A stretch of 23,488 nucleotides of DNA from a virus. Where the stretch lies: IMG/VR virus record IMGVR_UViG_3300046837_000328, positions 1 through 23,488 of that record; one strand, 5' to 3'. The position numbers and the translations under genes are program-made. This document shows, piece after piece, positions 4,876 through 20,389 of this stretch (positions within the stretch are counted from its first letter, which is position 1; every line of letters begins with the position of its first letter). A model generated the notes under the pieces. The model saw only the letters and a program-made list of their open reading frames with translations. It was not told where the DNA came from and did not search any database.

Positions 4876-5773
4876 CCCTGCTGCTCCTGCGCTCGCGGCG
4901 GAAACCGAGATTCCTGTTCTCCAGGAGCCAGTCACGCTGCCCCGGCCTACCTTCGGATATCTTCCGTTGGAAGTCGTGAACACCGGCGACTGGATTCGCC
5001 ACGGACTGGTCGCAGACACACACATGTGCTGCAAGGAAGAACGCCTCGCAGAACTGCACGCCCAATACGACCTTTTCAAAGCCGAAGGACTCACGACCGT
5101 GTTCCATGCGGGCAACCCGATTGACGGCTATGTGGCGCGCATCAACGGTGAAAGTGTTTTCTCCTCGACCATCGATGGACAGGCGCAATACTTCGCCGAC
5201 AACTATCCGCAGCGGGAAGGCATCACGACTTACTTCATCACCGGCGACGACCACGAGTCCTGGTTTGCTCCCGGCTTCAACATCGGGTCATACATGGAGC
5301 TTGTCGCCCGCAAAAATGACCGAAAGGATTTGCGCTATATCGGTCACGTCGAAGCGGACGTCGCGATTAAGGCCGGTGCCGTGCCGACTATCATCAAAAT
5401 CATGCACCCCGGTGGTGGTTCAGCGTATGCGCGCAGCTACACGGCGCAGAAGATTGTGGAGTCTCTGGAGGGTGGCGAAAAGCCGTCTATCCTGGTGCTG
5501 GGCCACTATCACGTCTCGAACTACATGCAAGAGCGCAACATTCACGTCGTGTCTCTGCCGGGGTTTCAGGACCAAACAATTTTCGCTCGCAAGAAACGCC
5601 TGCGGATGGAAGTCGGCGGGGCGATTATGGAATTCAAAGTGAACCCGGACGACGGCTCTGTCACCCGGTTCAGAGTGGAAATCAATCGCTTTTTCACGCG
5701 CGGATACTACAAGCGGTTCATCCGTTCAGACGCGAGGTTGATTAAGGGCCAGCTTGAACTGACCCCCGGTTAA
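4715..5773 (+). CDS. HTH domain fused to calcineurin-like metallophosphoesterase
   Basis: The product is 352 aa. Residues 1-47 (WTKTQIDTLTSLRQEGYSNP, then AIATKMGKSLDAVVNKIRRL) look like a Myb/GcrA-type helix-turn-helix, suggesting DNA binding. Residues from about 90 to 300 are a calcineurin-like phosphoesterase. They show D101-T-H103, an AGNPIDG loop (N134, D137) where GDxxD is usual, G-D-D-H-E (178-181) where GNH[DE] is usual, H231 and G-H264-Y-H266. Such enzymes use a two-metal site to cleave phosphomono- or diesters. The changed motif II and III residues leave the metal set uncertain. The start overlaps the preceding gene by 161 bases but is supported by the HTH sequence. It is the last gene of the plus-strand cluster, and its stop overlaps that of the opposing gene. 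A role in nucleic-acid processing is inference; the substrate is unknown. Confidence 0.85.
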   Translation: MSWTKTQIDTLTSLRQEGYSNPAIATKMGKSLDAVVNKIRRLSLSRPLTAGSADPAAPALAAETEIPVLQEPVTLPRPTFGYLPLEVVNTGDWIRHGLVADTHMCCKEERLAELHAQYDLFKAEGLTTVFHAGNPIDGYVARINGESVFSSTIDGQAQYFADNYPQREGITTYFITGDDHESWFAPGFNIGSYMELVARKNDRKDLRYIGHVEADVAIKAGAVPTIIKIMHPGGGSAYARSYTAQKIVESLEGGEKPSILVLGHYHVSNYMQERNIHVVSLPGFQDQTIFARKKRLRMEVGGAIMEFKVNPDDGSVTRFRVEINRFFTRGYYKRFIRSDARLIKGQLELTPG

Positions 5774-5781
5774 ACAACCGG
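5766..5781. terminator. Candidate bidirectional terminator hairpin at the gene convergence
   Basis: CCGGTT (5766-5771) and AACCGG (5776-5781) form a perfect 6-bp inverted repeat around a 4-base AAAC loop. The hairpin contains the overlapping stop codons of the two converging genes (TTAA, 5770-5773). No T-run follows on either strand, so a classical intrinsic terminator is not shown. Its position at the only strand switch in the window is the main reason to list it. Confidence 0.4.
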
Positions 5782-6444
5782 CTTGTAGATTTGATTCAGC
5801 AAACGTCCGGCTCCCGGCATCGAGCCCGAAGTCGGAGCCCCAGGGCTGATATTCCCAATCCGGGCAGCCATAGCTTTACGCTGGACGGAATTCGGGGCAG
5901 CCGCGACAGGCGAGGAGCCTGGAGCCATTCCCGCAGTGACCTGAGGAGGAGCTTGAAGCGTAGGCGGAGCCAATCCATTCGGGACCGACTTCGCCTTCAA
6001 AACTGGATTGTGAATTCCGGATTTCGACACCGCATGGTCCACGATATCAAAAGAAGGCGCGAGTTGTGTGAGCTTCCCGGCCTTGTCGGCTGCCATCAAA
6101 TCTTGGGGGTGCAAATGCAACGAATTGAAAATGACCCCCAGGTGACCGTTCAGAGAGCGGTAAAAGCCGAAACCGGCTTGCGTTAGAGCATCCTTGTGCT
6201 CCTTGATAAGTTTCGCTTCCTTACGGTTACCAAATTCTTTTAACGGGGCGGACACGGCAGCCGGGTTCCCGGCAATCAATGCCTGCATCGCGTGAATCTT
6301 CAGAATCTCCGGGGGCAGCCGGTCGTCCTGGGTGCTAGGCGTCTGGGACGCGTCAGGGGATGGAGCGGCAGCGATGGGTGCGGGGGCAGCAGCGGGTGGG
6401 GCAACCGCAGCGGGAGCAACGAGACCTGATTCAGTGCCAGTCAT
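5770..6444 (-). CDS. Pro/Ala-rich hypothetical protein, last gene of virion operon
   Basis: This 224-aa protein is not matched to a family. The N-terminal 45 residues are a Pro/Ala-rich, probably disordered leader. Residues from about 45 to 150 look globular and helical (LPPEILKIHAMQALIAGNPA, LIKEHKDALTQAGFGFYRSL, HLGVIFNSLHLHPQDLMAAD). The C-terminal 70 residues are again Pro/Gly/Ala-rich and end in PGAGRLLNQIYKPVV. It begins 12 bases after the stop of the 58-aa gene and closes the minus-strand run, so it is probably expressed late with the structural proteins. A minor virion or assembly protein is a guess from position only. No clear Shine-Dalgarno sequence precedes the ATG. Confidence 0.75.
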   Translation of the reverse strand: MTGTESGLVAPAAVAPPAAAPAPIAAAPSPDASQTPSTQDDRLPPEILKIHAMQALIAGNPAAVSAPLKEFGNRKEAKLIKEHKDALTQAGFGFYRSLNGHLGVIFNSLHLHPQDLMAADKAGKLTQLAPSFDIVDHAVSKSGIHNPVLKAKSVPNGLAPPTLQAPPQVTAGMAPGSSPVAAAPNSVQRKAMAARIGNISPGAPTSGSMPGAGRLLNQIYKPVV

Positions 6445-6456
6445 ACTTAACAGTCG

Positions 6457-6633
6457 CTATTTGCGGGCTCTGGGTCGAGCCTGCACAAGCCCCTGGCGGC
6501 TCTTTTCCTTCCGGTCGAGGTGTTCTACCACTTCCTGCCAGAACGGGTCCTGGGAGTAGATATCCGAGGCAATCCGGGCCGCTACCTGCTGCTCCCGGGT
6601 GTATTCTTTCTGCAATTTAGTGTTTACTTTCAT
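6457..6633 (-). CDS. Small hypothetical protein (58 aa)
   Basis: A 58-aa reading frame, MKVNTKLQKEYTREQQVAAR then IASDIYSQDPFWQEVVEHLD, with a basic tail ending in RPRARK. Its ATG overlaps the stop of the 2466-aa gene as ATGA (6630-6633), and its stop lies 12 bases before the next ATG. It therefore fills exactly the gap between two genes of the same operon. Composition (charged, likely helical, no low-complexity runs) supports a real protein. It has no recognisable Shine-Dalgarno sequence and probably depends on translational coupling. The function is unknown. Confidence 0.65.
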   Translation of the reverse strand: MKVNTKLQKEYTREQQVAARIASDIYSQDPFWQEVVEHLDRKEKSRQGLVQARPRARK

Positions 6634-9600
6634 CGGATTGTAACTTTAAAGTCATCCTTGTTTCGACGTTGGTCTTTCGTCCCGTATTGAGACGCCGGGA
6701 GTCCTATTTGATTGGATATGATTGCGTCCGCCCACGCAGAAGCGTCAACAGGCGTCAAAGGACTGGAAGTAATGGACTTACCTCCGCCAATCAAGATTCC
6801 ACCGTTTTTGTCTTGCACTGTCGCTTTGACTAATTTCATACCTGGATTATACTGCACTCCGGGCCTTGGCGCAACTAGATTCATCTCCTGCTGTGCGTTC
6901 CGCTGCTCAAACCTTTTCTGTAGTTCTGGGACCTTTGCCATCTCTTTACGGTAGTCCCCCAGGTCGAGCCGTCCCCAGCCCTTGTCCGCCCAAAGCTGCT
7001 TTTCAGCGAACCAGAGAGCCCCTTGCAGAGCATCGGGCTTGATATCCATCTGATTGGCAGCCGCGCGGAATACTTTCTGAGAAAAGTGGAAATCAGTGTC
7101 TGGCACTCCGGTCGCGTTCTTCGGCAAAATCCGCCACCGGTCCTGGTAGTCCTGGTAACCCAGGCGTCTCATAGTCCGGTCAGCCCATACGTCGATTGTG
7201 GCCTCGTGTTCCGAGCCAACCAAGTTCTTGATAAAATTCTGAGTCTTCGGGCCGGTCGTTTGGTTTAGCCACCGGCGCGCAAGAACCTGGAGCACCGGCA
7301 CGGAATGCATCCCGTAATTTTTTCCATTCGATTGGCGAGGCGCGAGGTCGTGCTGGTCAATCCACTCCGCCATGAAAGTCGCCTTGGTAGGCTTCACAGG
7401 CCGGTCTGACTCTGGAACATTTTTGTTATACCAGTCCTGCCAGTTGTCCTCGTCCGCCATCTTCATGCCCTCGTTGAACTTAGCAATCTGTTGGTCGAAC
7501 TTTCCGGTCTCGAAAGATTTCAGAGCATCGTAGGCGAATCCAAAATTCACATCCGGTGTGGTGTTCGGCGAAGTCGCCGCGAGTAGTTCAGCGAACAGTT
7601 GCGCGTTCTTTCCAAAATTTGCTTTGAGCTTCGGGACAAAATCAGAATACCATTTCATCCCGTCCTTAAACGCCGGGTGGTCTTGCCATTGCTTGGCAAA
7701 ATCAACCACCTTCTGCGCGTAGGCTTTGATTGCCTTCGGGGACTCCGCACCACCGTTTGCTTCTACGAGCGGCGCGTGAACGATATCGGAGGTTAGCTCC
7801 GGCTCTACCAGCTTGCCCTTTTTGTTTCGGACCTTGTTAGGAACGACTGCCTCAGGGTAGTGTTCCAAAAGGTCTTTGTTCGACATCGCCATGACTTCCG
7901 CTTTGCTGAACGCCTGCGGGGCGATAGCTGCACCGAGTAAATCTCTTTCTTCTGGAGTGTTGGGCTTGAACTGAACCCGCTTGTCGGTATCGATTCCCAT
8001 GCTGAACGCGGGACCATCTTTGAGCTTCGAATAAAAATCCTGCTTCTCTGCCTCTGGCCCAACAACAGTTTTCGAATGGTCGGCAGGGTTAATCGTCCCG
8101 TCACCGTAAAGAATACCGTGTGGAGTAAGCACGCTCTCTTGGCCATACTTATTACCCCACGCGGTCGCTTGCTCCGGGGTCATGTTGGGCACCAGAAAAC
8201 TTTTTCCCTGGTCAACGCCTTTGTAATTTCCGCTCACCTCGGTAGGAGTGAAGCCGTCGGCTACAAGAGCTTTTTCTAAATTCTCGTTTCGCAGTTCGTT
8301 GTGCTCGTTGGTGCCGGGGCCTAAATCTTCTTTTGTCGCCGTGAAGATTGCCCAGTTAGGAGACTGGAGCGCGCGAGGAAGTGTTTCTTCGCTCTTAAAA
8401 TCTTCCGGCTTAGCGGACGGTCGGTATTGGACGTCTGGAGCGTAGCCAGCTTTTTGTAGCTCCTGCTGTCTGGTGAACGCTTGAGACTCCAGACTGCTTC
8501 CCTCGTTCGGTTTAGCGACATACTGCTTTAGTTCAACCGCACGGTCTTTTGCCTCGTCGCGGCTCAAAAATTCTCCCGCGTTGGTAGTGAATCCTTCCGA
8601 CAAGTTAGGGTCCGCCTTCCAGGCTTGAAGCATCAGGTTATCCGGAAGGTCACCGTTCTCGTCCAACCGACTGGCGTATTTTTCTTTCAGATACTCCAGC
8701 TTAGCAAAGGCATGCATCGGGCCTTCGTAAATCTTACCGGTGTCCTCGTCACGGAGTGCAGCCATCTTTACCGCGCGCGGGTTTGTTTCATCGGGCCGGA
8801 ATTGAATCGGTAGTTCATACGTGGGCTGGTCAAGCTCACCCACCGGCTCCGCCTTTTTCACCCACTCATTGGGAAGCACAAAATCCGTGGAGGTGCCACT
8901 ACCCTGTTTCAACGCGGCTTCGCGGGCTGCCTGTGCAATTTCTTTCGGCACTTCTACTCTGCTAACTGACGGGCCGAAAGAAATGGCGCGTCTCAAACTC
9001 GAAGTCCACCAGGAGCCACCTTCGCCGGAGCCTACTCCTCCACCTTTGCCGGAGTATAAAATCTGGGTGTCTTCATCAGCGGGCCGGAATTGGGCTGACT
9101 CTGCTTTCCCAGTCGCCTGAGGGCTCGTCTCAGTGACCGTAGACGACGGCTCCGAAATCAACGGGATGTGGTCCAGCTTTTCCCCCGCGTCGTAGGTGTG
9201 CAACGCTACGCCATCCTGGTCAACAATGTTCTTGCCCTTCGCATCCAGCAAATGCACGTCCATGTTGTCAATCTTCCCCAGGTTGCGCTTCACCATCTCT
9301 AGCACCGAGGGAGACAGCTTATCCCAGTCCTGCTGGCGAGCCTCCACTTTAAAAGTGCCGGTGTTCTTCTCGTAGTTCACGCGAGCAAAACCTTTTTGCA
9401 AAGCTTCGGAACGATTCTCTTCGCCGCTGGTCGTAGGCTTCAGACCATACTTCTCGGCCACATCAGGATTCTCGTTTACCCATTCGTGGTGCCACTGCCC
9501 GCCAAGTTGAATCGGTTTCCCGTCGGGGGCAATCCACGCCTTCGAAAACATCCCGGGTCCCTCCTTAAGCTGCCAGTCGTCTTTTCGCTTTCGGGGTTTG

Positions 9601-12600
9601 AACTGGGCAGATTCGTCATCCAAAGAAAGTTTCTGAAGATTCTCCGGCAACAGAAAAGCTTTCTGCTCCGCAAATGGTCTTTCCGGGGCAGGAACAAATC
9701 CGGCTTCGCCCTTCTTGGGAATATTACCTTCCGGGGTCCGGAGGTGCTCACCGAAGTTAACCCAGGAGTTTTGTCCGAGAGTCTCCGAAGCCATCGCAGG
9801 CTTCGCGGCATCCGAATACATCGCGGAGTGCGCGAGGTAAGCGTTAAGCTCCCCCTTCGGGCCGAATTCGTAACCCTCTTTTGCGTGCCCCATCACGTCG
9901 TGGACCGCGCGAAAAACGTCGTTATAAGGAAGCTCACGCCCGTTGACCTGGACGCCAGAATCCTCCAGCAGTGGATGCTTGGCAATCTCTGTGCCGGTTC
10001 CATAGCCCGCCTCAGTGGGAAAAAACCAGAGGTGATGGTTGTCTCGAACATCTGCGGTCATCTCTGCCGAGCTACCGTAGGGCTGCCCGGGCTTAGTCCA
10101 GGGCTCCATCTTATATCCGGCCTTCTCCAGAGCGTTCCATTGCTGAACGGTTTCGTCCGCCATCGCTTTGTAAGACGACTGGACTTCTGGACTGTCCGGC
10201 GAATGGGCCGCACTCTGATAAAAATCCGCGATACGCTTCGCCACCGCTTCATTGAGCGGCGTAGCGGCAGTAGGCCGGGTATACGGCCTGCCGGTGGCCT
10301 TCATGTATCTATCGGCAACTTGCTGGATGTCTTCATTGCCTCTCAACTCCGGACGGAATCCGGCAGGAGCCTCTATCACAGTCCGTCCGCTATCATTATT
10401 AACCGGTAGCCCCTGACTCTCTGCGGCTGAATCCAAAGCCCGCATTTGAGTCGGATTAGGTTTCGGACCCTCAATAAGAATCTGAGCGTCGGCAGACCCG
10501 CCATCGATATTAACTCTGACCCATTGTTTTTTATAGGCTAATTCTCGGGGGTCTTCTTTTGTGACCCCAGTTATGTATTTCTCCGCTGAATGATAGTGGG
10601 TAGGGGTCGCATCATAGAAATCTCCGTCTGGGGACAACCACATTCCTACTAGGTGAGAGAATCTTGGCCATCTCCCCACGTTTTCTTTATCCGGGAGTAA
10701 TTCAGGACGAAATCCGGCAGCCATCGTCAACGTGTTCCCCCGCAGCGACGGTGAACCAGCAGGCGCATGTTCAACGTCCGCCATGTGCTCCAGGTTCAGC
10801 CTGCGCCGTGCCTCGATGAAACTAGGCGCGTCAGAAAATTTGTTTAGCTCCTGTAAAAACGGATTCGGCTCCAAGACATGCTGGCCCTCGATGCCGAGCC
10901 CTTTCGCAGTTTCCCCTTCAAACTCCGGCGACTCTGCGGTCGGCGCTTCGACTCTACCTGGAAGGGTGGCTTCCGCGATTCGCTGCCCCGCGAGATTCAG
11001 CGGCACGACATCCTTCTTCATGATGCGTGCGGTAGCAGGAGTGGTCTGGCCGAACACCGCATTGATTGCGTCGGCAGCATCCTGCGGAATCACAGCAGCC
11101 TCGCCGGTGACTGGAGGAGCAAAATAGCCCTTCATCTTCGGCACCACGAGCGGCTGGCCGGAGCCTGCGCGACCAGTTAACTGGTTGCGGGAATACTTCT
11201 GGACTTGGTCCAGAATGGTATTCCACGAGTCGGGAGTAAAAGACTTGTCGTCAACGTTCCACCCGTCAGGTAGCTTCACCTCAGGGTGCGCGATAGAAAA
11301 ATTCGCAAGCTTCTGAAGGTTCGCCGCGAGAACAGCATGCGAACCGCCATAGACCTGATACTTCCCGCCCTTGGTAACGTCGAAACGTTCCGGAGAGAAT
11401 AACGTGGCCATAAAAGACCGGGTCGCAATCGGGAGTTGTCGCCAAGCCTCGATGACTTCTCGCCTGTCCGCGCGGCTGACCCCGCCGAGCGCAGCTTCCG
11501 GCAAATCGCCAGTGCCAGCCGCAGGTGCGGTTCCGCCCGCGTGCCCGTAGTGAATATCTACCGGCGAGCCCGAAAGAACTGCCTCGTTCAAAATTCCCAT
11601 CATCTCGCGCGGAGACTTGGCAGCGCCAGGGAGCGCAACGTCCGGCGCGGTCTTCACGATTTCCTCGTGGCGTTTCTGTTGCTGCGTCGCGGCAGCGGGT
11701 GACCCAACCGGAGCTACCACTTTCGGGAGCTTGGACGGAGACACCAGCGGCTTGTTTACAGCCGACTGTTTCAGCCCTTGCTTCATCGTGGCGTAGTCGA
11801 GCGGGAAGCCCAGGTCGGAGTATCGGCCAGCAACCGGATTAAATCCGAGAGACGCCATGGTGCCCGCTACCGCGTGAGCGAGCTTGTCAGTGAGCGTCTT
11901 TCCATCACCGATTCCTTTATAAGCCGAATCAAAATTCTCAGCACGGACTTCGGAGCCCATGTATTGGTCTGCTACGTTGTTCTGCTCTTCGGGAGTCAGG
12001 GTGTGCTCCCACAAAGATTTGCCTGCCGCTGCGGCATCGGATTGCTGGCGTTGAATCTCAGAACCGGCAGCTTGTTTAAACGACTCCATGTCCGGAGTCT
12101 CGTTATTCTGGGTGAAGGTGTCGTGGACCTGACGGATTATTTTTTCCTTCGCTTCCGCGTCACCTCTGCCGGTCTGGTCAAGAATGGTAGCGGTGGGATT
12201 GTCGGTGCCTGGAGCGAGCAGGTCGGCATACCGCTGGCGCATTTGCGACCATACCTCAGGGGTATACTGACCCTTGACCGCGTCGTTAAGCTCCCGGACC
12301 TGGGTAGCGCCAACCACATCGTCAATCGCGTGCAGTGCGTCGTGCGGACCGGCCTCAACGTTTCGAATCACCACCACTTTCTTTCCGTTGATGGTAGTGG
12401 TGAAAGCGGCCTTGTCTGCGAAAGTATCTGCCCGGTCTGCGGGAATTCCCATACCCGTCAAAGTGTCGGGTAGATTGTCGGGCTGTCCTTGCTCCGGCCT
12501 GGGCGCATAAAAAAGTTCTGCGCCGGTTCCCTCCACTAGCTGCCGCAAAGCATTCACCCGGGATTTTACCCCGGGAGACGCCGAATCATAACCCGCGTCA

Positions 12601-14030
12601 TGGACCGAATTAAGACCCGGAAAATTCTTCGAGTTGGGGGTGCGAATGTTCGAGCCCCACTCGCGTGGAGCGGAAATCAAACCGCTAATCGTGTGGGTCC
12701 CGGCATACTTCACGCCATGAGCGAGACCGAAAATAGTTCCAAACGGAGTGAACGATTCTCGCTCTTCCGGAGTCTCCGCAGTGCCTGCTTGCAGCCCGAT
12801 ATCGAATCCAGCACCGGCCAACGCTGCGCCAGCGGCACGAGGTGCAGCTTCAGCAACCTGTCGGCCCACGACTGCCAGGGAAGACTTAAGCGGGGCCGCG
12901 CCAGCAATCTGTCTTCCAATTTCCGAAAGCTGGTCGAAGCTACCGGCCACTTTGCCAGCGCCCGTAGCGATTTTTTCTCCGAGCTTCCCGCCCTTCTCCA
13001 AGCCCTCCATGATACCCAGAGGGATAGCAGCCGGATTTAGCTCACCAGCCGCGACTGCTCCCGCAGCAGCACCCGCCGCCTTTGATACTCCCGGAGCTAC
13101 CGCGCGCACCGCAGTCGCCACCGGCTTCACCAGAGCACCGACAGCCTGCACGCCGCGTCCAATCGTAGCCTGGGCTGCCTTCTGGGCCAGTGCAGCAGCC
13201 GATTCAGGCACCAGAGCACCGGCAGCTTTGCCAACCGGGGCCAGACCTTTGCCCATCGCTTCAAAAGCGAACGGGTCCGCCTGGGCTAGCGAGGCCACTT
13301 GCTCCGGTCTCACTGCGGAGCCCTGCTGCTCCAAATTCTTAACCACCTCCGGACCCACCGCACTTAACAACGCGCCGTGGCCGGTTGCAATCTTTTGCTG
13401 CTGCTGAAGGTCGGCCAGGGAATCGAAAAGTGAATTGACTTTGTCTTGTTCCGTGTATTGGTCGAGCGGTTTGCCGCCAACTTTTTTCGCGAGGCGAACG
13501 GCTTGACCCACGAGGCCGGTAGTAGCCGCCTCAGTCGCTGAGGTAGACTCTGCGACTCGCTGCTGGATGTTTCGGCCTAACTGGTCTAGCGTGCCCGGGT
13601 CCGCGCCGAGCAGATGCCCGAGGCCCAAGCTAATCGAATCAGCGGCATTCTGCGCGACATCGCTCGCTTGAGTGAATGCGCCTTTGCCGAAACCCGCGAT
13701 GCCCTTCGCCATGCCCGAAGCGGAGATTCCGCGATACCAGGGCTCCAGCTTCTGCTTGTGCAACGCGTCGGCAACCTTGGAGACCATCCACGGGTCCTTC
13801 TGAAGGTCGGGACGGCTGGAAAATTGTTCGAGGATTCGAAACTCAGGGTCCTGCTTCGATAACTGAAAAATCTGCTCCGAAGTAAAATCCTTCAGAGGGT
13901 CAACCTCTTTGGACTGGGGCTGGTCGAATGCGGCCTGCTGGTCCGGGGTTAACTGAACCTCTTGTCCAGCCGTAGGCGAGTTTTCATACTGCGCCTGTTG
14001 CTCCGGCGATAGAGAAACTTCTTGGGGCAT
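6630..14030 (-). CDS. Giant multi-module 'polyvalent' phage protein, probable ejected internal virion protein
   Basis: At 2466 aa this is by far the largest gene. The N-terminus has two EVxLxPxQQA copies (residues 4-35). Residues from about 100 to 430 are an Ala/Gly-rich, amphipathic, possibly membrane-active stretch. HDALH (563-567) resembles a zincin HExxH with Asp for Glu. From residue 1106 onward, [QG][FY][RKN]P motifs at 1106, 1224, 1476, 1647, 1743, 1868, 2020 and 2393 introduce distinct modules: a W[IL]xPDG module (twice), a NDVFRAVHDVMGH...GQNSWVNF module, a GGSWWT module, an EGPMHAFA...GFTTNAGEFLSRDEA module, a DUF3293-like module (WAIFTA...GQESVL) and a C-terminal ATIDVWADR domain. 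Several of these are familiar to me from large phage polyvalent proteins. Its place after three internal-virion-like genes matches T7 gp16. Ejection into the host is inferred from synteny. ATG 14030 overlaps the upstream stop as TAATG. Confidence 0.85.
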   Translation of the reverse strand: MPQEVSLSPEQQAQYENSPTAGQEVQLTPDQQAAFDQPQSKEVDPLKDFTSEQIFQLSKQDPEFRILEQFSSRPDLQKDPWMVSKVADALHKQKLEPWYRGISASGMAKGIAGFGKGAFTQASDVAQNAADSISLGLGHLLGADPGTLDQLGRNIQQRVAESTSATEAATTGLVGQAVRLAKKVGGKPLDQYTEQDKVNSLFDSLADLQQQQKIATGHGALLSAVGPEVVKNLEQQGSAVRPEQVASLAQADPFAFEAMGKGLAPVGKAAGALVPESAAALAQKAAQATIGRGVQAVGALVKPVATAVRAVAPGVSKAAGAAAGAVAAGELNPAAIPLGIMEGLEKGGKLGEKIATGAGKVAGSFDQLSEIGRQIAGAAPLKSSLAVVGRQVAEAAPRAAGAALAGAGFDIGLQAGTAETPEERESFTPFGTIFGLAHGVKYAGTHTISGLISAPREWGSNIRTPNSKNFPGLNSVHDAGYDSASPGVKSRVNALRQLVEGTGAELFYAPRPEQGQPDNLPDTLTGMGIPADRADTFADKAAFTTTINGKKVVVIRNVEAGPHDALHAIDDVVGATQVRELNDAVKGQYTPEVWSQMRQRYADLLAPGTDNPTATILDQTGRGDAEAKEKIIRQVHDTFTQNNETPDMESFKQAAGSEIQRQQSDAAAAGKSLWEHTLTPEEQNNVADQYMGSEVRAENFDSAYKGIGDGKTLTDKLAHAVAGTMASLGFNPVAGRYSDLGFPLDYATMKQGLKQSAVNKPLVSPSKLPKVVAPVGSPAAATQQQKRHEEIVKTAPDVALPGAAKSPREMMGILNEAVLSGSPVDIHYGHAGGTAPAAGTGDLPEAALGGVSRADRREVIEAWRQLPIATRSFMATLFSPERFDVTKGGKYQVYGGSHAVLAANLQKLANFSIAHPEVKLPDGWNVDDKSFTPDSWNTILDQVQKYSRNQLTGRAGSGQPLVVPKMKGYFAPPVTGEAAVIPQDAADAINAVFGQTTPATARIMKKDVVPLNLAGQRIAEATLPGRVEAPTAESPEFEGETAKGLGIEGQHVLEPNPFLQELNKFSDAPSFIEARRRLNLEHMADVEHAPAGSPSLRGNTLTMAAGFRPELLPDKENVGRWPRFSHLVGMWLSPDGDFYDATPTHYHSAEKYITGVTKEDPRELAYKKQWVRVNIDGGSADAQILIEGPKPNPTQMRALDSAAESQGLPVNNDSGRTVIEAPAGFRPELRGNEDIQQVADRYMKATGRPYTRPTAATPLNEAVAKRIADFYQSAAHSPDSPEVQSSYKAMADETVQQWNALEKAGYKMEPWTKPGQPYGSSAEMTADVRDNHHLWFFPTEAGYGTGTEIAKHPLLEDSGVQVNGRELPYNDVFRAVHDVMGHAKEGYEFGPKGELNAYLAHSAMYSDAAKPAMASETLGQNSWVNFGEHLRTPEGNIPKKGEAGFVPAPERPFAEQKAFLLPENLQKLSLDDESAQFKPRKRKDDWQLKEGPGMFSKAWIAPDGKPIQLGGQWHHEWVNENPDVAEKYGLKPTTSGEENRSEALQKGFARVNYEKNTGTFKVEARQQDWDKLSPSVLEMVKRNLGKIDNMDVHLLDAKGKNIVDQDGVALHTYDAGEKLDHIPLISEPSSTVTETSPQATGKAESAQFRPADEDTQILYSGKGGGVGSGEGGSWWTSSLRRAISFGPSVSRVEVPKEIAQAAREAALKQGSGTSTDFVLPNEWVKKAEPVGELDQPTYELPIQFRPDETNPRAVKMAALRDEDTGKIYEGPMHAFAKLEYLKEKYASRLDENGDLPDNLMLQAWKADPNLSEGFTTNAGEFLSRDEAKDRAVELKQYVAKPNEGSSLESQAFTRQQELQKAGYAPDVQYRPSAKPEDFKSEETLPRALQSPNWAIFTATKEDLGPGTNEHNELRNENLEKALVADGFTPTEVSGNYKGVDQGKSFLVPNMTPEQATAWGNKYGQESVLTPHGILYGDGTINPADHSKTVVGPEAEKQDFYSKLKDGPAFSMGIDTDKRVQFKPNTPEERDLLGAAIAPQAFSKAEVMAMSNKDLLEHYPEAVVPNKVRNKKGKLVEPELTSDIVHAPLVEANGGAESPKAIKAYAQKVVDFAKQWQDHPAFKDGMKWYSDFVPKLKANFGKNAQLFAELLAATSPNTTPDVNFGFAYDALKSFETGKFDQQIAKFNEGMKMADEDNWQDWYNKNVPESDRPVKPTKATFMAEWIDQHDLAPRQSNGKNYGMHSVPVLQVLARRWLNQTTGPKTQNFIKNLVGSEHEATIDVWADRTMRRLGYQDYQDRWRILPKNATGVPDTDFHFSQKVFRAAANQMDIKPDALQGALWFAEKQLWADKGWGRLDLGDYRKEMAKVPELQKRFEQRNAQQEMNLVAPRPGVQYNPGMKLVKATVQDKNGGILIGGGKSITSSPLTPVDASAWADAIISNQIGLPASQYGTKDQRRNKDDFKVTIR
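6843..10715 (-). repeat. Eight dispersed [QG]-[FY]-[RKN]-P motifs marking module boundaries
   Basis: The giant protein carries eight short recurring motifs: GFRP at 10715-10704 and 10361-10350, QFKP at 9605-9594, QFRP at 9092-9081 and 8804-8793, QYRP at 8429-8418, QFKP at 7973-7962 and QYNP at 6854-6843. Spacings between consecutive motifs are 118, 252, 171, 96, 125, 152 and 373 residues. Sequence similarity between the regions that follow is otherwise low, except for the first and third modules. They may be flexible linkers, recombination joints or protease-recognition sites. Confidence 0.6.
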
Positions 14031-15709
14031 TAGTCAACTTTGTAAAATTTTCCATCTGGACCACGCTGCACATTTCCAATCCCTTGAATAAATCGAACAG
14101 GCCCCGCTGCGGCAGCCCCAGGAGCAGAAACCAAACCCTTCGCGGACCCTTTGCTGAGCGGCCAGGGATTTTCCAAAAATTGTCCATTGGCAACTCGCGA
14201 CTGCTCCGCGTCCAGAGGATTGCCGATGCCTGCGGTGCCCGCTGACTGAACCGCATTTTGAAACGCTGGCTGAGCGGCAGACTCGACACCGCGAATCGCT
14301 TCGTAGCCCATATCCACCAACCGCTGGCGCGCCTGGGGAGTAAGGACTGTTTCACCCTTAATCTTTTGCCAGACGTTTTTCATGTTCAGATACCGTTCGA
14401 TTTTGCTCTGGTTCTGTTCCGTCTTCTCCCACTTGAATTCTCGCATCACGCCAGAGGGGTCATACATCTTGATAAGATTTTCAACCATCCCCTGGTCGAT
14501 GACAGCCATGTTCGAGGACTGCTGTTGCTCGATAGGCATCTTCGCCACTTCCTGCGCGCGACTTACAAAAGGTGTGATGTATTGCTGAGCCGCTTCCCAG
14601 TTCGTCACGCGTTTATCCGCGCGCGCCGCAGTCTGGATGTCGTTCTTGACCTTCCAAGCTTCCGGAGTGTAAGTCAGGATGCCGGGAGTAGGCTTAGCAG
14701 CCGGAGCCGCAGGCGCAGATTTCGGAGCCACCATCGGAGCTTCACCGGGGGTGTGCTGAGCCACCGCAACCGAGCGCCGGTTCATCATCTCCTGGACTTG
14801 AGCGTCCGGCATAGAAGACACCAAGGCCGGACCATTCTCCGCACCTTCCTGTTCGAGTTGATTCGCTAACCCTGCCCGGTCTGCCGGATTGGACGCCTGA
14901 GGATTTGGAGTGCCCGCTGGCGAGACTAAGCCCGAACCTGCGTGCATGTCTTTAGCACCGGACACCGCAGAGGGGTCCAAAAAATATTGCCCGCGCGCCG
15001 GATGAAACTGCGGAAGAACTTTGTCCAACTGCTTGGCATACGACCAATATGCCGGAGAGCCGGGATACCCGCTCTCCACGTCCGGAGGAGTAACATTCTG
15101 GCCCTGCCAGTTCACCTTAGCCGTATACTTGCGGCCATTCTCTTCCACGGTCCGTTCGCCCACTGGAGTGAGCGCCTTCAACCAGGAATCGGAAAGTGAA
15201 AGCTGGCCGCGCATTTCGTTTCCACGAGCCGCAGCTTTCTTGAAATCTTCCGGACCAGGATTCGGGGGCATAGCCTCACCGAAAAAATGGCCGAACTGTT
15301 GGTAGGTATCGAGCCCGCCCGGGCCATACACAGCAGTCGCCTGTTGCGCCGCGAGATTCGTCTTCGCTAAAGCTGTCTGTTGCTCCACGAGCCCTTGCTG
15401 GGCCTGCGCTTGCTGGGCCGAGAGTTGGGCCTGGGCACCCGCAGCGCGAGCAGTATCAAGACGAGACTGCACCACATCAGGATTGACATATTCTTTCAGA
15501 CTTTCCAGCAGAGCCTTTTTCTTCGACTGCCCCACTTGACCGATGCGGTCCAAAATATCCTGGTTGGTAATGAACCCCTTTCGGAGTGAATCAACAAGCT
15601 GCTCCACCGCTGCGGGTCCAACCACATTAGGGTCCGCAGAAGTGACGAGGGGCTGCCCGAGCGAGTTTACGCTGGACTGAGCGGTATCAGTAGGTCCACC
15701 AATTGCCAT
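14030..15709 (-). CDS. Internal virion / DNA-ejection-type protein
   Basis: Start ATG 15709 (559 aa) is preferred to an upstream in-frame ATG at 15820 because it follows the previous stop by five bases and has GGGAG at 15720-15724. Residues from about 80 to 125 are Gln/Ala-rich helix (QAQLSAQQAQAQQGLVEQQT). Residues from about 340 to 470 contain IDQGMVENLIKMYDPSGVMR followed by EFKWEKTEQNQSKIERYLNM and LTPQARQRLVDMGYEAI. I recognise this as resembling a domain of phage internal/ejection proteins in which a DPxSVVRE-type segment follows a helix. Pro/Ala-rich linkers separate the segments. It lies between two internal-protein-like genes and the giant protein, and its stop overlaps the giant gene as TAATG. 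The category is fairly likely; the exact role is inferred. Confidence 0.8.
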   Translation of the reverse strand: MAIGGPTDTAQSSVNSLGQPLVTSADPNVVGPAAVEQLVDSLRKGFITNQDILDRIGQVGQSKKKALLESLKEYVNPDVVQSRLDTARAAGAQAQLSAQQAQAQQGLVEQQTALAKTNLAAQQATAVYGPGGLDTYQQFGHFFGEAMPPNPGPEDFKKAAARGNEMRGQLSLSDSWLKALTPVGERTVEENGRKYTAKVNWQGQNVTPPDVESGYPGSPAYWSYAKQLDKVLPQFHPARGQYFLDPSAVSGAKDMHAGSGLVSPAGTPNPQASNPADRAGLANQLEQEGAENGPALVSSMPDAQVQEMMNRRSVAVAQHTPGEAPMVAPKSAPAAPAAKPTPGILTYTPEAWKVKNDIQTAARADKRVTNWEAAQQYITPFVSRAQEVAKMPIEQQQSSNMAVIDQGMVENLIKMYDPSGVMREFKWEKTEQNQSKIERYLNMKNVWQKIKGETVLTPQARQRLVDMGYEAIRGVESAAQPAFQNAVQSAGTAGIGNPLDAEQSRVANGQFLENPWPLSKGSAKGLVSAPGAAAAGPVRFIQGIGNVQRGPDGKFYKVD

Positions 15710-15714
15710 AAAAA

Positions 15715-16380
15715 TTAAACTCCCATCGACATTATGTTTTTCGCAATCGAGGGACTCTGCATAGGACCGAGTCCAGATTGCACCGGCGAAATCCAGCCGG
15801 AGAGCCCGTAGGGATTCCACGACTGCGTAGGATTCATCCCGGGGCTAGTCGATTGATAAATGTTTGGCGCATACGACGGACTCAGCGCAGCGGCCTGCGA
15901 AATTCTCATTGCGTTCGCGCCCGCATCGCCGGTCTGCAAATTAGTTAGCTGCTGAACAGCATTGTTATAGTTAGGGTCAACCCAACCACCAGCCGAAGTC
16001 GAACGCGTCGAGGCAACTTTGTCCTGGGCAACTTGTAATGAACGTTGATACGAATCGTAGGCGTGCATCGCAGTGTTTTTTGCAGTAAGATTTTGAGCAT
16101 ACGCATTCGCCTCGATGAACGCCGGATTTTTGGTAGGGTCCTGCTGCTGCGGTGCCTGATACGCACCGGTGCCCAGCATGTTCTGAAAATTGGGACCGTA
16201 AATTGACTGGAGCATGTTTTGAATCAGCGGGTCCGACAAGCTCTGAATCCCCGGAGCCGCGCCCGGCGTAGGCATGGGGGCTACCTGCCGAGTCGCGAGA
16301 CCCGGGTCACGAGGAGCCACTGGCGCTAACCCAGGAGTCAGCGACGCTGCGGTCCAACCACCAAGAGGAGAGACAGGCAT
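15715..16380 (-). CDS. Hypothetical virion-operon protein (Pro/Gln/Asn-rich)
   Basis: This 221-aa protein is not recognised. The first 45 residues are Pro/Ala/Gly-rich (MPVSPLGGWTAASLTPGLAP). The middle is helical with repeated Gln, Asn and Ala (AFIEANAYAQNLTAKNTAMH, then DSYQRSLQVAQDKVAST). The C-terminal 60 residues are rich in Pro, Ser and Asn with aromatic residues. It starts four bases after the previous stop and ends five bases before the next start, so it is part of one translational unit with its internal-virion-like neighbours. A small internal core or assembly protein is a reasonable guess from position. There is no Shine-Dalgarno sequence. Confidence 0.78.
   Translation of the reverse strand: MPVSPLGGWTAASLTPGLAPVAPRDPGLATRQVAPMPTPGAAPGIQSLSDPLIQNMLQSIYGPNFQNMLGTGAYQAPQQQDPTKNPAFIEANAYAQNLTAKNTAMHAYDSYQRSLQVAQDKVASTRSTSAGGWVDPNYNNAVQQLTNLQTGDAGANAMRISQAAALSPSYAPNIYQSTSPGMNPTQSWNPYGLSGWISPVQSGLGPMQSPSIAKNIMSMGV
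15720..15724 (-). promoter_or_regulatory. Shine-Dalgarno GGGAG deciding the start at 15709
   Basis: On the minus strand GGGAG lies 10 bases before ATG 15709, within the final codons of the upstream gene. It supports the short form of the ejection-type protein over the 37-residue N-terminal extension. Confidence 0.55.
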
Positions 16381-16384
16381 ATCG

Positions 16385-17353
16385 TTAAATCGCAGACAGA
16401 GCTAAGCCGCCTAAATCGGCAGCGTTACCCCCGCCACCTCCGCCGCCACCACCACCAAACCATCCGCTAATCGTAGGAATCGCGCTTCCGAGCGCAGACC
16501 CAGCACCACCAAAAGCGTTCCCCCACGCGGTCGCCTGACCCATGGTCCCACGAGCCGCAGCATCCGCCGAGGACTGCGCGAGTTGATTCGTAGCTCCAAC
16601 ACGGGCAAGCCAGATGTTGGCAATGTTCTGGCCGGAGAGTCCCGCATTCGGGAGCATCGAGGCCGAAGTGCCAAGCACGCTCTGCGTTCCACCGAGGTTC
16701 GCGAGTTGCGTCTGACTGAGCCGAGGGAAAAGCTGCTGCAAAATATTCTGCCTGGAATTTTCCAGGTTCTGCGCCGACTCAGAAAGCTGAGCGGCCTGCT
16801 GCTGGCGTTGCATCTGAAGATTCAGACCAGCGGTTCCCAAAACGGTCCGCAGCATCTGTCCGCCGATTCCTCTGCCGGATGCTCCCTGAGTAACCATGCC
16901 GGACTGTTCGAGACCGGCCTGGACAAGCTGGTTCTCCACGTCCGGAGGAAGTGTAGCGCCCGCAGAAAGTTGTTTGAGCGCGGCATCGACTAAACCATTC
17001 TTGGCTTCCGTCATTCCCGGCGTTCCCGCTAAAGCCTCCTGGGCTGCCTGGGTCCCCACCGCTCCCGATTGCTGCCCGATTTGCTGCGCCTGCGACAGCA
17101 TTTGATTTTCTGATTGATACCGAGCTTGAAGCAAAGCCGGGTCAACCTGTCCCTGAAGCGCGAGACGCGCCATCGTATTCTGAATATCCCCTGCGGTCGC
17201 CTGCGCGTTAATCACCGAAGGGTTCAGATTATTGAAGACGAATTCACGCTGCTGGCGCAACGCATCGATTTGCATCCGCGTAGCGGTCTTCACCGCGTCC
17301 GCCTGAAGTGCGGCACCCGCTACCTGACCAATTCCTGAGAAAATATCGCTCAC
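16385..17353 (-). CDS. Internal virion protein-like (gp14-type position), Gln/Ala-rich
   Basis: A 322-aa protein starting at GTG 17353, which overlaps the GNAT stop as GTGA. The N-terminus MSDIFSGIGQVAGAALQADA resembles the short hydrophobic start of phage internal core proteins of the T7 gp14 / P22 gp7 sort. Residues from about 20 to 220 are long Gln/Ala-rich helices. The C-terminus holds a run of about 10 glycines near residues 298-308 after a hydrophobic stretch (GSAIPTISGWFGG). Such proteins are usually carried inside the capsid and pass through the tail to extend a channel. Role is inferred from composition, size and order rather than from a diagnostic motif. Confidence 0.75.
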   Translation of the reverse strand: MSDIFSGIGQVAGAALQADAVKTATRMQIDALRQQREFVFNNLNPSVINAQATAGDIQNTMARLALQGQVDPALLQARYQSENQMLSQAQQIGQQSGAVGTQAAQEALAGTPGMTEAKNGLVDAALKQLSAGATLPPDVENQLVQAGLEQSGMVTQGASGRGIGGQMLRTVLGTAGLNLQMQRQQQAAQLSESAQNLENSRQNILQQLFPRLSQTQLANLGGTQSVLGTSASMLPNAGLSGQNIANIWLARVGATNQLAQSSADAAARGTMGQATAWGNAFGGAGSALGSAIPTISGWFGGGGGGGGGGNAADLGGLALSAI

Positions 17354-17799
17354 ATTTTTATTGAGAATGCCTCAGCTACGGGATGATACCCAAGCTTGGC
17401 GTAAAGTCTTCGCATCCGTTCAATAGTCGGGCCGGTGGTCGCGGTGCAAACTACGTCATGACACCCGGCCCGCTTGCAATCGAATTCAAAATGATTCAAC
17501 AGGTCGAGGGAATGCCGTCGTGATGTCTTATCGACAGCCCACAAACATTCTTGACCCCGAAGATGCCCGGTTAATGAATCAGGAAAAATCAATCCCAAGA
17601 GGATGCCTTTCACTTTCTCATTCACAGACGCCACATAACCTTTTCCAATTCCCTGTTGCAGCAAAGCAGTCCAGGTCTTCGCAAGGTGCTCGTGATTGGT
17701 CTTTAGCTCGAAGCCGGACTCAATCGCTGCCGCGTCGAGCACCGGCGTTAATTCCTTGATTATCCCGGAAAGCTCTTGATATTGAATCGGTCGAACCAT
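17350..17799 (-). CDS. GNAT-family N-acetyltransferase
   Basis: A 149-aa protein with the GNAT order of elements. It has an N-terminal helix-rich segment, strands GYVASVNEKVKGILLGLIF, a central ECLWAVDKTSRRHSLDLLNH where [RQ]xxGx[GA] acetyl-CoA binding is expected, helix FEFDCKRAGC, and the C-terminal MRRLYAKLGYHPVAEAFSIK typical of the final strand-helix-strand. The acetyl-CoA loop reads SRRHS, which lacks the usual glycines, so the cofactor site may be altered. The gene is embedded between a fibre-like and an internal-virion-like gene. Small GNATs in phage structural operons are familiar, but their substrates are generally unknown. It starts 21 bases after the previous stop with no clear Shine-Dalgarno sequence, and its stop is coupled to the next gene by GTGA. 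Confidence 0.82.
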   Translation of the reverse strand: MVRPIQYQELSGIIKELTPVLDAAAIESGFELKTNHEHLAKTWTALLQQGIGKGYVASVNEKVKGILLGLIFPDSLTGHLRGQECLWAVDKTSRRHSLDLLNHFEFDCKRAGCHDVVCTATTGPTIERMRRLYAKLGYHPVAEAFSIKM

Positions 17800-18637: not shown

Positions 18638-20389
18638 TTACGTTAGGGTCATGTTACCTAGAGACAGAATCTGGACACCCCCGAGACCCGTGTCCGGAGA
18701 ACATCGCACGATAAGCTCCAGCAGAATGTGTTTTACCGAATGCGCCGGTAAAACCAAAGACAATGTGAACGGAGTAAAGGGACCCGTTACTAAGTCCCGT
18801 AGGGGCGACTGAATGCTGCTTCCTGAACCGGGAATAGAATCATACAACTCCATGTTGAAGATTACTCCATCCTGGCCCGCGATATAATTGCAAACATTTC
18901 CATCGGCTTCCCACGCTGGAATGTGCCAAGTCAGCGTAACGGGATTGTCTGTCGGATTACATATCCGGGAAGTAAAACCCTGGGAAGTGGAAAGCTGAAA
19001 ACAAGGACCGACGCCCGGTGAGAGTGCGTTAAAAGTTCCTGTTCCGCCCGCCATTGTATTCCCGGGGTCAGCCGGAGAAATCGTCCAGGTCAGGTCTGCA
19101 ATATTGCTGGGCACACCGGCGCACTCGCCATCTGAAATAGCGATACTGTAGCTCCTAGAGCATATTTCCTGGTCCGTGCTAGAGTCCACGACCTGCACCT
19201 CGAAGGTGCTAGTCTGATTCGTAGTAGGAGTGCCGGAGACATGCCCCGCTGAATTCATGCTGAGCCCATCGGGCAGGCTACCGCTAATAATCGAAAACGT
19301 AAGCGGCGCAGTTCCTCCGCTAGCAGTAAAATCAAAAGTGTAAGGCGTGGTGGTGGCCCCGCTGGGAGGATTCGCATTCGTAAATCCAAACGTAATCAGC
19401 TTGTAGTAGAAAATCGCTACACGGTTATTCGCGCTCGTAACTGTGATGTTGTAGTGGAAAGTTCCACTCACTGTCGGGATGCCACTCACGTTTGCCGAAA
19501 TCGGTGACTCTTGCGCAAACACCAATCCGGTCGGCAACGGGTCCCCGGCGTATACAAAAGTGCAAGGCCCCGTGAATCCATCCGGCGCGAGAGTAGTCTC
19601 TCCGAACATATCTCCAAGGCATCCATCTAAGTCGGTAGTGTCCCCTCCGCCACCTCCATCGGGAATACAGGTGCAGCTTGCTGCGTTCCAGGTGAACCCT
19701 GGTTCACACGGGCTCGTGATTAGCCCGCACGGCACACACTCACATAAGATAGCATTCCAGCCCGTTCCAGGAGGACACGTCAACGGAGAGCAATCAAAGT
19801 CTGTGCATACGTGGTCACTCAACGGAGTCTCGCCATCACCAGTGATTGCGGTGATTCGATAACATCCCGGCGTGCAGACTTCGAACGAGCTTCCAGAGAA
19901 GGCATACCAGTAGAGACTGTAAGGGCCGCTAGGCCCATTAGAACTTTTATACAGATTGTAGGCAACGGTCTGCGGGAACACAGGAAGAGCGACGATGGTA
20001 TATCCTCCGCCTGGAATGGCGATAGGCGAACTTCGGGCCGACTCATGCCCCTGTCCATCGATAGCGGAAATCTCATAGTAGCCCTCCGAGCACAGCGCAA
20101 TCGAACCGTTAGGAACGCACTCCGAAATTAAATTGTAAGGGCTGTCCGGATTATTCGGGTCTATTGCTTCATAAATCTGGAAACAGATTTGCCCGGGAAC
20201 ATTGTCGAACGAAAAGAATCTGCGGCCTCGCCCGCCCGCTCTGCCGCCCGTCGGTCCATGATGCCGGAGGATGTCGGGCAGAATTATAACCGGGCCACCG
20301 CTGCTCGAAAACTGTGCCTCGCAAATCGGTGGCGACACATACTCGATGCGCGGCTTGCGCAGAAATAGAGTGTCTAAGATTACGTTCAT
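18638..20389 (-). CDS. Ig-like, Cys-rich virion adhesin-like protein
   Basis: A 583-aa beta-rich protein. Residues from about 65 to 200 hold two fibronectin-III-like units (ICFQIYEAIDPNNPDSPYNL...EGYYEISAIDGQG and AYNLYKSSNGPSGPYSLYWY...CYRITAITGDG). Residues from about 205 to 245 hold two Cys repeats of the form C-x-P-G-x2-W-N-A-x2-C-x-C-x-P. Residues from about 280 to 420 contain two putative-Ig (He_PIG-like) repeats, marked by LPTGLVFAQ...VSGIPTVSGTF and LPDGLSMNSAGHVSGTPTTN. The remainder is a beta-sandwich-like domain with further Cys. No signal peptide is seen, consistent with a virion part. The ATG overlaps the previous stop as ATGA. Surface binding is inferred from the domain types; the receptor is unknown. 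Confidence 0.78.
   Translation of the reverse strand: MNVILDTLFLRKPRIEYVSPPICEAQFSSSGGPVIILPDILRHHGPTGGRAGGRGRRFFSFDNVPGQICFQIYEAIDPNNPDSPYNLISECVPNGSIALCSEGYYEISAIDGQGHESARSSPIAIPGGGYTIVALPVFPQTVAYNLYKSSNGPSGPYSLYWYAFSGSSFEVCTPGCYRITAITGDGETPLSDHVCTDFDCSPLTCPPGTGWNAILCECVPCGLITSPCEPGFTWNAASCTCIPDGGGGGDTTDLDGCLGDMFGETTLAPDGFTGPCTFVYAGDPLPTGLVFAQESPISANVSGIPTVSGTFHYNITVTSANNRVAIFYYKLITFGFTNANPPSGATTTPYTFDFTASGGTAPLTFSIISGSLPDGLSMNSAGHVSGTPTTNQTSTFEVQVVDSSTDQEICSRSYSIAISDGECAGVPSNIADLTWTISPADPGNTMAGGTGTFNALSPGVGPCFQLSTSQGFTSRICNPTDNPVTLTWHIPAWEADGNVCNYIAGQDGVIFNMELYDSIPGSGSSIQSPLRDLVTGPFTPFTLSLVLPAHSVKHILLELIVRCSPDTGLGGVQILSLGNMTLT

Follow-up and report, generated by a model that had tools for sequence, protein, structure and literature searches.

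Phage polyvalent proteins, as named by Iyer et al. 2017 (PMC5512222), are huge single chains in which effector domains of different kinds, unrelated to one another, are combined with a zincin-like site; their cargo includes ART-PolyVal, GNAT and other enzyme domains. Among the proteins treated in the available text of that paper are DdrB and DarA of phage P1 and the virion RNA polymerase (vRNAP) of N4, which are large virion-associated antidefence or early proteins. DdrB and N4 vRNAP carry a metallopeptidase domain, and proteolytic processing of polyvalent proteins has been suggested there. Processing is known for P1, where it yields a single packaged fragment, whereas N4 vRNAP is packaged uncut; serial marks between modules are not reported for either phage in that text (PMC5512222). 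Cutting at many sites is known from giant phages, in which a separate protease cleaves many head proteins at a short motif. In SPN3US, the prohead protease gp245 cuts at AXE, mostly to remove propeptides (PMC10052503).

The window analysed here is a 23,488-nucleotide stretch of viral DNA (virus record IMGVR_UViG_3300046837_000328, positions 1 to 23,488). As the preliminary description had stated, it holds a real open reading frame for a 2466-aa protein. The frame lies on the minus strand, and an identical protein is encoded by all four contigs of this phage. The chain belongs to the phage polyvalent proteins, as the preliminary description had suspected: it consists of a carrier N-part, exchangeable cargo and a DUF7178 cap, the architecture that Iyer et al. 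named. Short peptides, hereafter marks, stand at the joints between its modules. The features are as follows, in window coordinates.

6630..14030, minus strand: ORF of the polyvalent protein, 2466 aa, one of a family of 29 distinct members
10716..14030, minus: invariant N-part, aa 1-1105, common to 29/29 family members
12330..12344, minus: zincin-like H-x3-H site, HDALH, aa 563-567; HExxH in the other 28 members
11937..11951, minus: candidate third zinc ligand, E694/E698 (EVRAE)
10704..10715, minus: mark 1, GFRP, aa 1106, end of the N-part
10362..10703, minus: module 1, without known family
10350..10361, minus: mark 2, GFRP, aa 1224
9621..10340, minus: module 2, phrog_3170 domain, which occurs in many other phages too
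9594..9605, minus: mark 3, QFKP, aa 1476
9156..9581, minus: module 3, folded domain common to many relatives
9081..9092, minus: mark 4, QFRP, aa 1647
8805..9080, minus: module 4, mostly disordered by prediction
8793..8804, minus: mark 5, QFRP, aa 1743
8430..8792, minus: module 5, placed elsewhere in relatives
8418..8429, minus: mark 6, QYRP, aa 1868
7980..8420, minus: module 6, DUF3293, predicted T3 SAM lyase fold (8bb1, 7ock; Pfam, Foldseek)
7962..7973, minus: mark 7, QFKP, aa 2020
6876..7922, minus: module 7, DUF7178 cap, last domain in 14/14 relatives scanned
6843..6854, minus: mark 8, QYNP, aa 2393, ahead of the appended C-terminal tail
6633..6842, minus: C-terminal tail behind mark 8
14030..17799, minus: upstream block of genes for 596 aa, 221 aa, 322 aa and a GNAT of 149 aa

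Searches of the window protein with Pfam and PHROGs return DUF7178, DUF3293, a sub-threshold DUF3086, two unnamed PHROGs and nothing else. The chain unites disparate predicted activities (SAM-lyase-like, phrog_3170, DUF7178), as is characteristic of polyvalent proteins. Module 6 is matched in Foldseek by the T3 SAM lyase structures 8bb1_E (probability 1.00, E 4.8e-3, TMt 0.60) and 7ock_K (probability 1.00), and in Pfam by DUF3293 together with a weak SAM lyase match; it has the T3 SAM lyase fold by structure prediction and is a putative SAM lyase. The T3 enzyme counters restriction and BREX (PMC11580459). It is the product of a separate early gene, whereas module 6, with its predicted activity, is one module of a chain.

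Eight [QG][FY][RKN]P marks occur in the C-terminal 1361 residues, against 0.134 expected from shuffles of the same part, which confirms the eight tetrapeptides counted in the preliminary description. The residues before them are also as described there, with A, V or I plus Q in six cases and AG in two. A ninth match to the expression, GFNP at aa 729, lies inside the folded N-part. Looser [QG][FY]xP matches at aa 1444 and 1926 do not count as marks, since the model folds both regions with confidence. The claim that a different module follows each mark holds broadly, as no segment shares a database family with another, although modules 1, 3 and 5 show weak signs of distant kinship. The estimate that about seven effectors would be released is plausible; of the segments behind mark 1, however, just four are domains that fold with confidence and have relatives.

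Structure predictions place the marks outside these folds. In the AlphaFold model of aa 1218-2412, marks 2, 3, 4, 5, 6 and 8 lie in stretches with pLDDT<50 (6/7, p 5e-4), while mark 7 stands four residues ahead of such a stretch; marks 4 to 6 weigh less in this count because the alignment for the run contained hardly any relatives for modules 4 and 5. The AF2 model of aa 440-1119 has a pLDDT of 84 and turns disordered exactly at mark 1, which opens a stretch with pLDDT<50. The models thus agree with the modular reading of the preliminary description, since the marks are predicted to lie in unstructured linkers and not inside single folded domains. A peptide that recurs at module joints, in linkers predicted to be accessible, is what a polyprotein would present.

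Searches with parts of the protein, followed by alignment of the N-part, gave 29 distinct family members, the window included; no family member and no N-part relative was found among the contigs of the genome collection. The family N-part spans about 1100 aa and is 29-36% identical to that of the window. Behind it, relatives carry ART-PolyVal, His_Phos_1, GNAT, Radical_SAM and methyltransferase domains as cargo, and the DUF7178 cap is invariably the last domain. GNAT is cargo within two relatives (L099 and L101) and a separate gene at 17350-17799 of the window. At another locus (L115), a homing-endonuclease-like gene (8258-8926; phrog_314, E 1.3e-20) directly precedes the polyvalent gene.

Across the family, the marks are concentrated in the cargo-bearing part. 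QFxP occurs 60 times in 23 C-parts, against 3.5 expected from shuffles, and 7 times in the N-parts, against 3.6 expected; G, F and P of mark 1 are invariant across 26 sequences. Module order varies between phages, and module 5 of the window directly follows mark 1 in several relatives. BLAST homology starts within 4 aa of a mark in 200/911 cases, against 27.5 ± 9.8 for shifted marks, and homology ends are likewise enriched, with the caveat that a shared mark by itself carries an alignment on to the joint. Of 47 QFxP marks, none falls within a Pfam domain (6.6 expected), and the number of marks grows with the length of the C-part (rho 0.64). A clear mark stands behind the cap in the window and in L098, where a tail follows. 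In most of the relatives that lack a tail, the chain stops close to the cap and has no mark there; the short tail of L110 is also without one. Some joints in the family bear degenerate marks (QAQP, QLQP, KFQP) or none. Overall, the alignment of homologues shows modules shuffling between phages at the marks, a point that the preliminary description had proposed to check, rather than marks that are not conserved at domain borders.

Do the marks persist as DNA or as peptide? Among marks within one protein, identical residues share the same codon in a proportion of 0.497, against 0.468 predicted from codon usage. Because their codons are no more alike than that, the marks are not copied DNA units, and a DNA-level recombination joint was rejected as the main reason for them. 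Judged from these sequences, selection acts on the mark peptide rather than on a DNA joint. The variable residue x points in the same direction. It is uniform within a protein and differs between phages (R/K, Q, E or S/T), with a within-protein concordance of 0.56 against 0.28 in permutations (0 of 5000). For example, L116 has Q and L016 has E at every mark; in L098 most marks have Q, whereas R/K predominates in L141 and in the window. The last-named relative, L141, is the sister of L098 (support 100/100), and the two are 67% identical over their aligned parts. At the seven joints compared between them, one L141 mark being used twice because module order differs, x has changed at each while F and P are retained; Q has become K or R at 5/5 Q joints, against 12/94 elsewhere. 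Such a concerted change is expected if one factor reads every mark.

These marks follow the carrier. Marks with a uniform flavour occur in 12/24 family members and in 2/52 other large proteins (p 5e-6), the latter taken from the fetched loci, most of which were fetched through the phrog_3170 module; they follow the N-part and not the cargo. The marks are not part of the cargo domains either, as phrog_3170 on other carriers is mostly without a strict downstream mark (6/12 vs. 3/60, leaving out QFGP matches inside phrog_3170 as folded-domain sequence). With only 2 of the 52 positive, a mark rule for all polyvalent proteins was rejected. One exception, L021, encodes a different polyvalent protein (5599-13785, 2729 aa) with a HEITH site and nine [FY]SP peptides (p 8e-8). 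The next residue is S or G in most of these peptides, which are possibly a joint mark of its own; no second relative was found. A general virion maturation site was also rejected: the other ORFs of the same loci, counted as all long frames on both strands, hold 11 marks against 15.4 expected. The lack of an excess there speaks for a reader inside the protein.

A candidate reader is present in the N-part. In polyvalent proteins, a zincin is recognised by HExxH, which some clades follow with an Asp three residues further along, and by a Glu that lies downstream in a second helix. HExxH is found in 28/29 family members and the downstream ExxxE/D is conserved; in the N-part model, strands and helices surround H-x3-H and the downstream Glu in a plausible zincin order. 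Foldseek of this model against PDB gave no significant match, with a few metallopeptidases among the weak ones, and the N-part had no match at E <= 0.001 in PDB or BFVD; its best BFVD match (E 1.4e-3) is to a protein whose name refers to an ART-PolyVal-like domain. Pfam metallopeptidase families matched none of 26 members, and searching the PDB sequences with an N-part profile also gave no match. As the fold searches lend it weak support, the zincin assignment is drawn from the motif, the order of elements and their conservation. Several zincins of the thermolysin type favour a large hydrophobic residue directly behind the cleaved bond, and cleavage ahead of F would agree with that. In the window, the site reads HDALH, and codon 564 is GAC (12339-12341), giving Asp at the general-base position. 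Glu to Asp usually cripples a zincin, and this substitution is a real difficulty for the reading that the protein's own zincin acts in this phage.

The explanation that we favour, with a probability of about one half, is a carrier-plus-cargo protein whose marks are cleaved by one protease per phage, most likely its own zincin. The N-part with its zincin-like site would carry exchangeable effectors closed off by the DUF7178 cap; the linkers between them bear the peptide small-Q/G-F-x-P, and cleavage at it, before the aromatic residue if the zincin is the enzyme, would release the modules, be it in the virion or in the host once the chain has been ejected. Of the three functions that the preliminary description had offered for the marks, a linker location and an exchange of modules at the marks both stood, the latter without a joint of shared DNA, and protease processing is the best remaining reading, because x is homogenised within each phage and has switched in parallel, the number of marks follows cargo length, and the N-part holds a zincin-like site. 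The uncut N4 vRNAP is a counter-example among polyvalent proteins, in the available text of PMC5512222. The carrier's zincin would be the most economical reader of the marks. The cutting enzyme may instead be another protease, of the phage prohead type or from the host, whose specificity sets the flavour in each phage; the window keeps eight marks despite HDALH, and gp245 likewise serves many sites with one short motif (PMC10052503). That enzyme acts on many head proteins, whereas here the sequence is different and the mark is confined to one protein. The other ORFs of the loci lack the mark excess that a general head protease would lead one to expect, and the marks track the zincin-bearing N-part, which makes a separate protease rather unlikely.

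A single reader need not cut. Peptide-level selection and a flavour per phage fit any such factor, so the marks might be docking peptides, bound through FxP for head loading or guided ejection by one of the phage's own proteins, from its core, scaffold or tail. Their predicted accessibility suits this idea, as does the neighbourhood: by gene order, the polyvalent gene comes directly after a block of genes that likely encode internal virion proteins, and the Mel-JY33 phage has a similar order of GNAT, small protein, large protein and polyvalent gene. Docking has no need, however, for a mark at each joint or behind the cap where a tail is appended, nor for module borders within a few residues of a mark, and we consider it unlikely though still a credible alternative. 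Elsewhere in the window, positions 4-681 look by eye like the part of a DNA polymerase I type gene that encodes the C-terminus (SVHDE motif), and the product of 18638-20389 is probably structural, with an Ig domain predicted in it (He_PIG, E 4.6e-13). Least probable of all is that nothing reads the marks and that they merely record module exchange, as a standard linker end inherited by recombination. Modules do swap at the marks, and a given module can sit at different positions, but synonymous codons are not shared beyond expectation, x has changed jointly along a lineage even though homologous modules still flank the joints concerned, and the same cargo on other carriers is mostly without marks.

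Both the polyvalent protein and the idea of its processing are already known. The available text of PMC5512222 contains neither the word "linker" nor a recurring boundary peptide; a mark that is uniform within each phage, with modules exchanged at it, is new here, and as far as the literature searched shows, a lineage-coded joint mark is undescribed. A further and more tentative step, which we hold at clearly less than even odds, is that the protein is a self-addressed polyprotein, in which the carrier zincin and a QFxP joint peptide particular to each lineage coevolve, so that any rightly flanked effector could be plugged in, delivered and cut free. Cutting into separate effectors has been proposed for giant phage polyvalent proteins, and the readable, lineage-specific joint peptides of this family make the question directly testable: the marks predict cut positions, and a shift of specificity is predicted between the sisters L098 (Q) and L141 (K/R). 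The marks also provide a rule for locating the borders between hidden effectors in a chain. As the cargo includes a likely SAM lyase, the joints also help to discover antidefence proteins.
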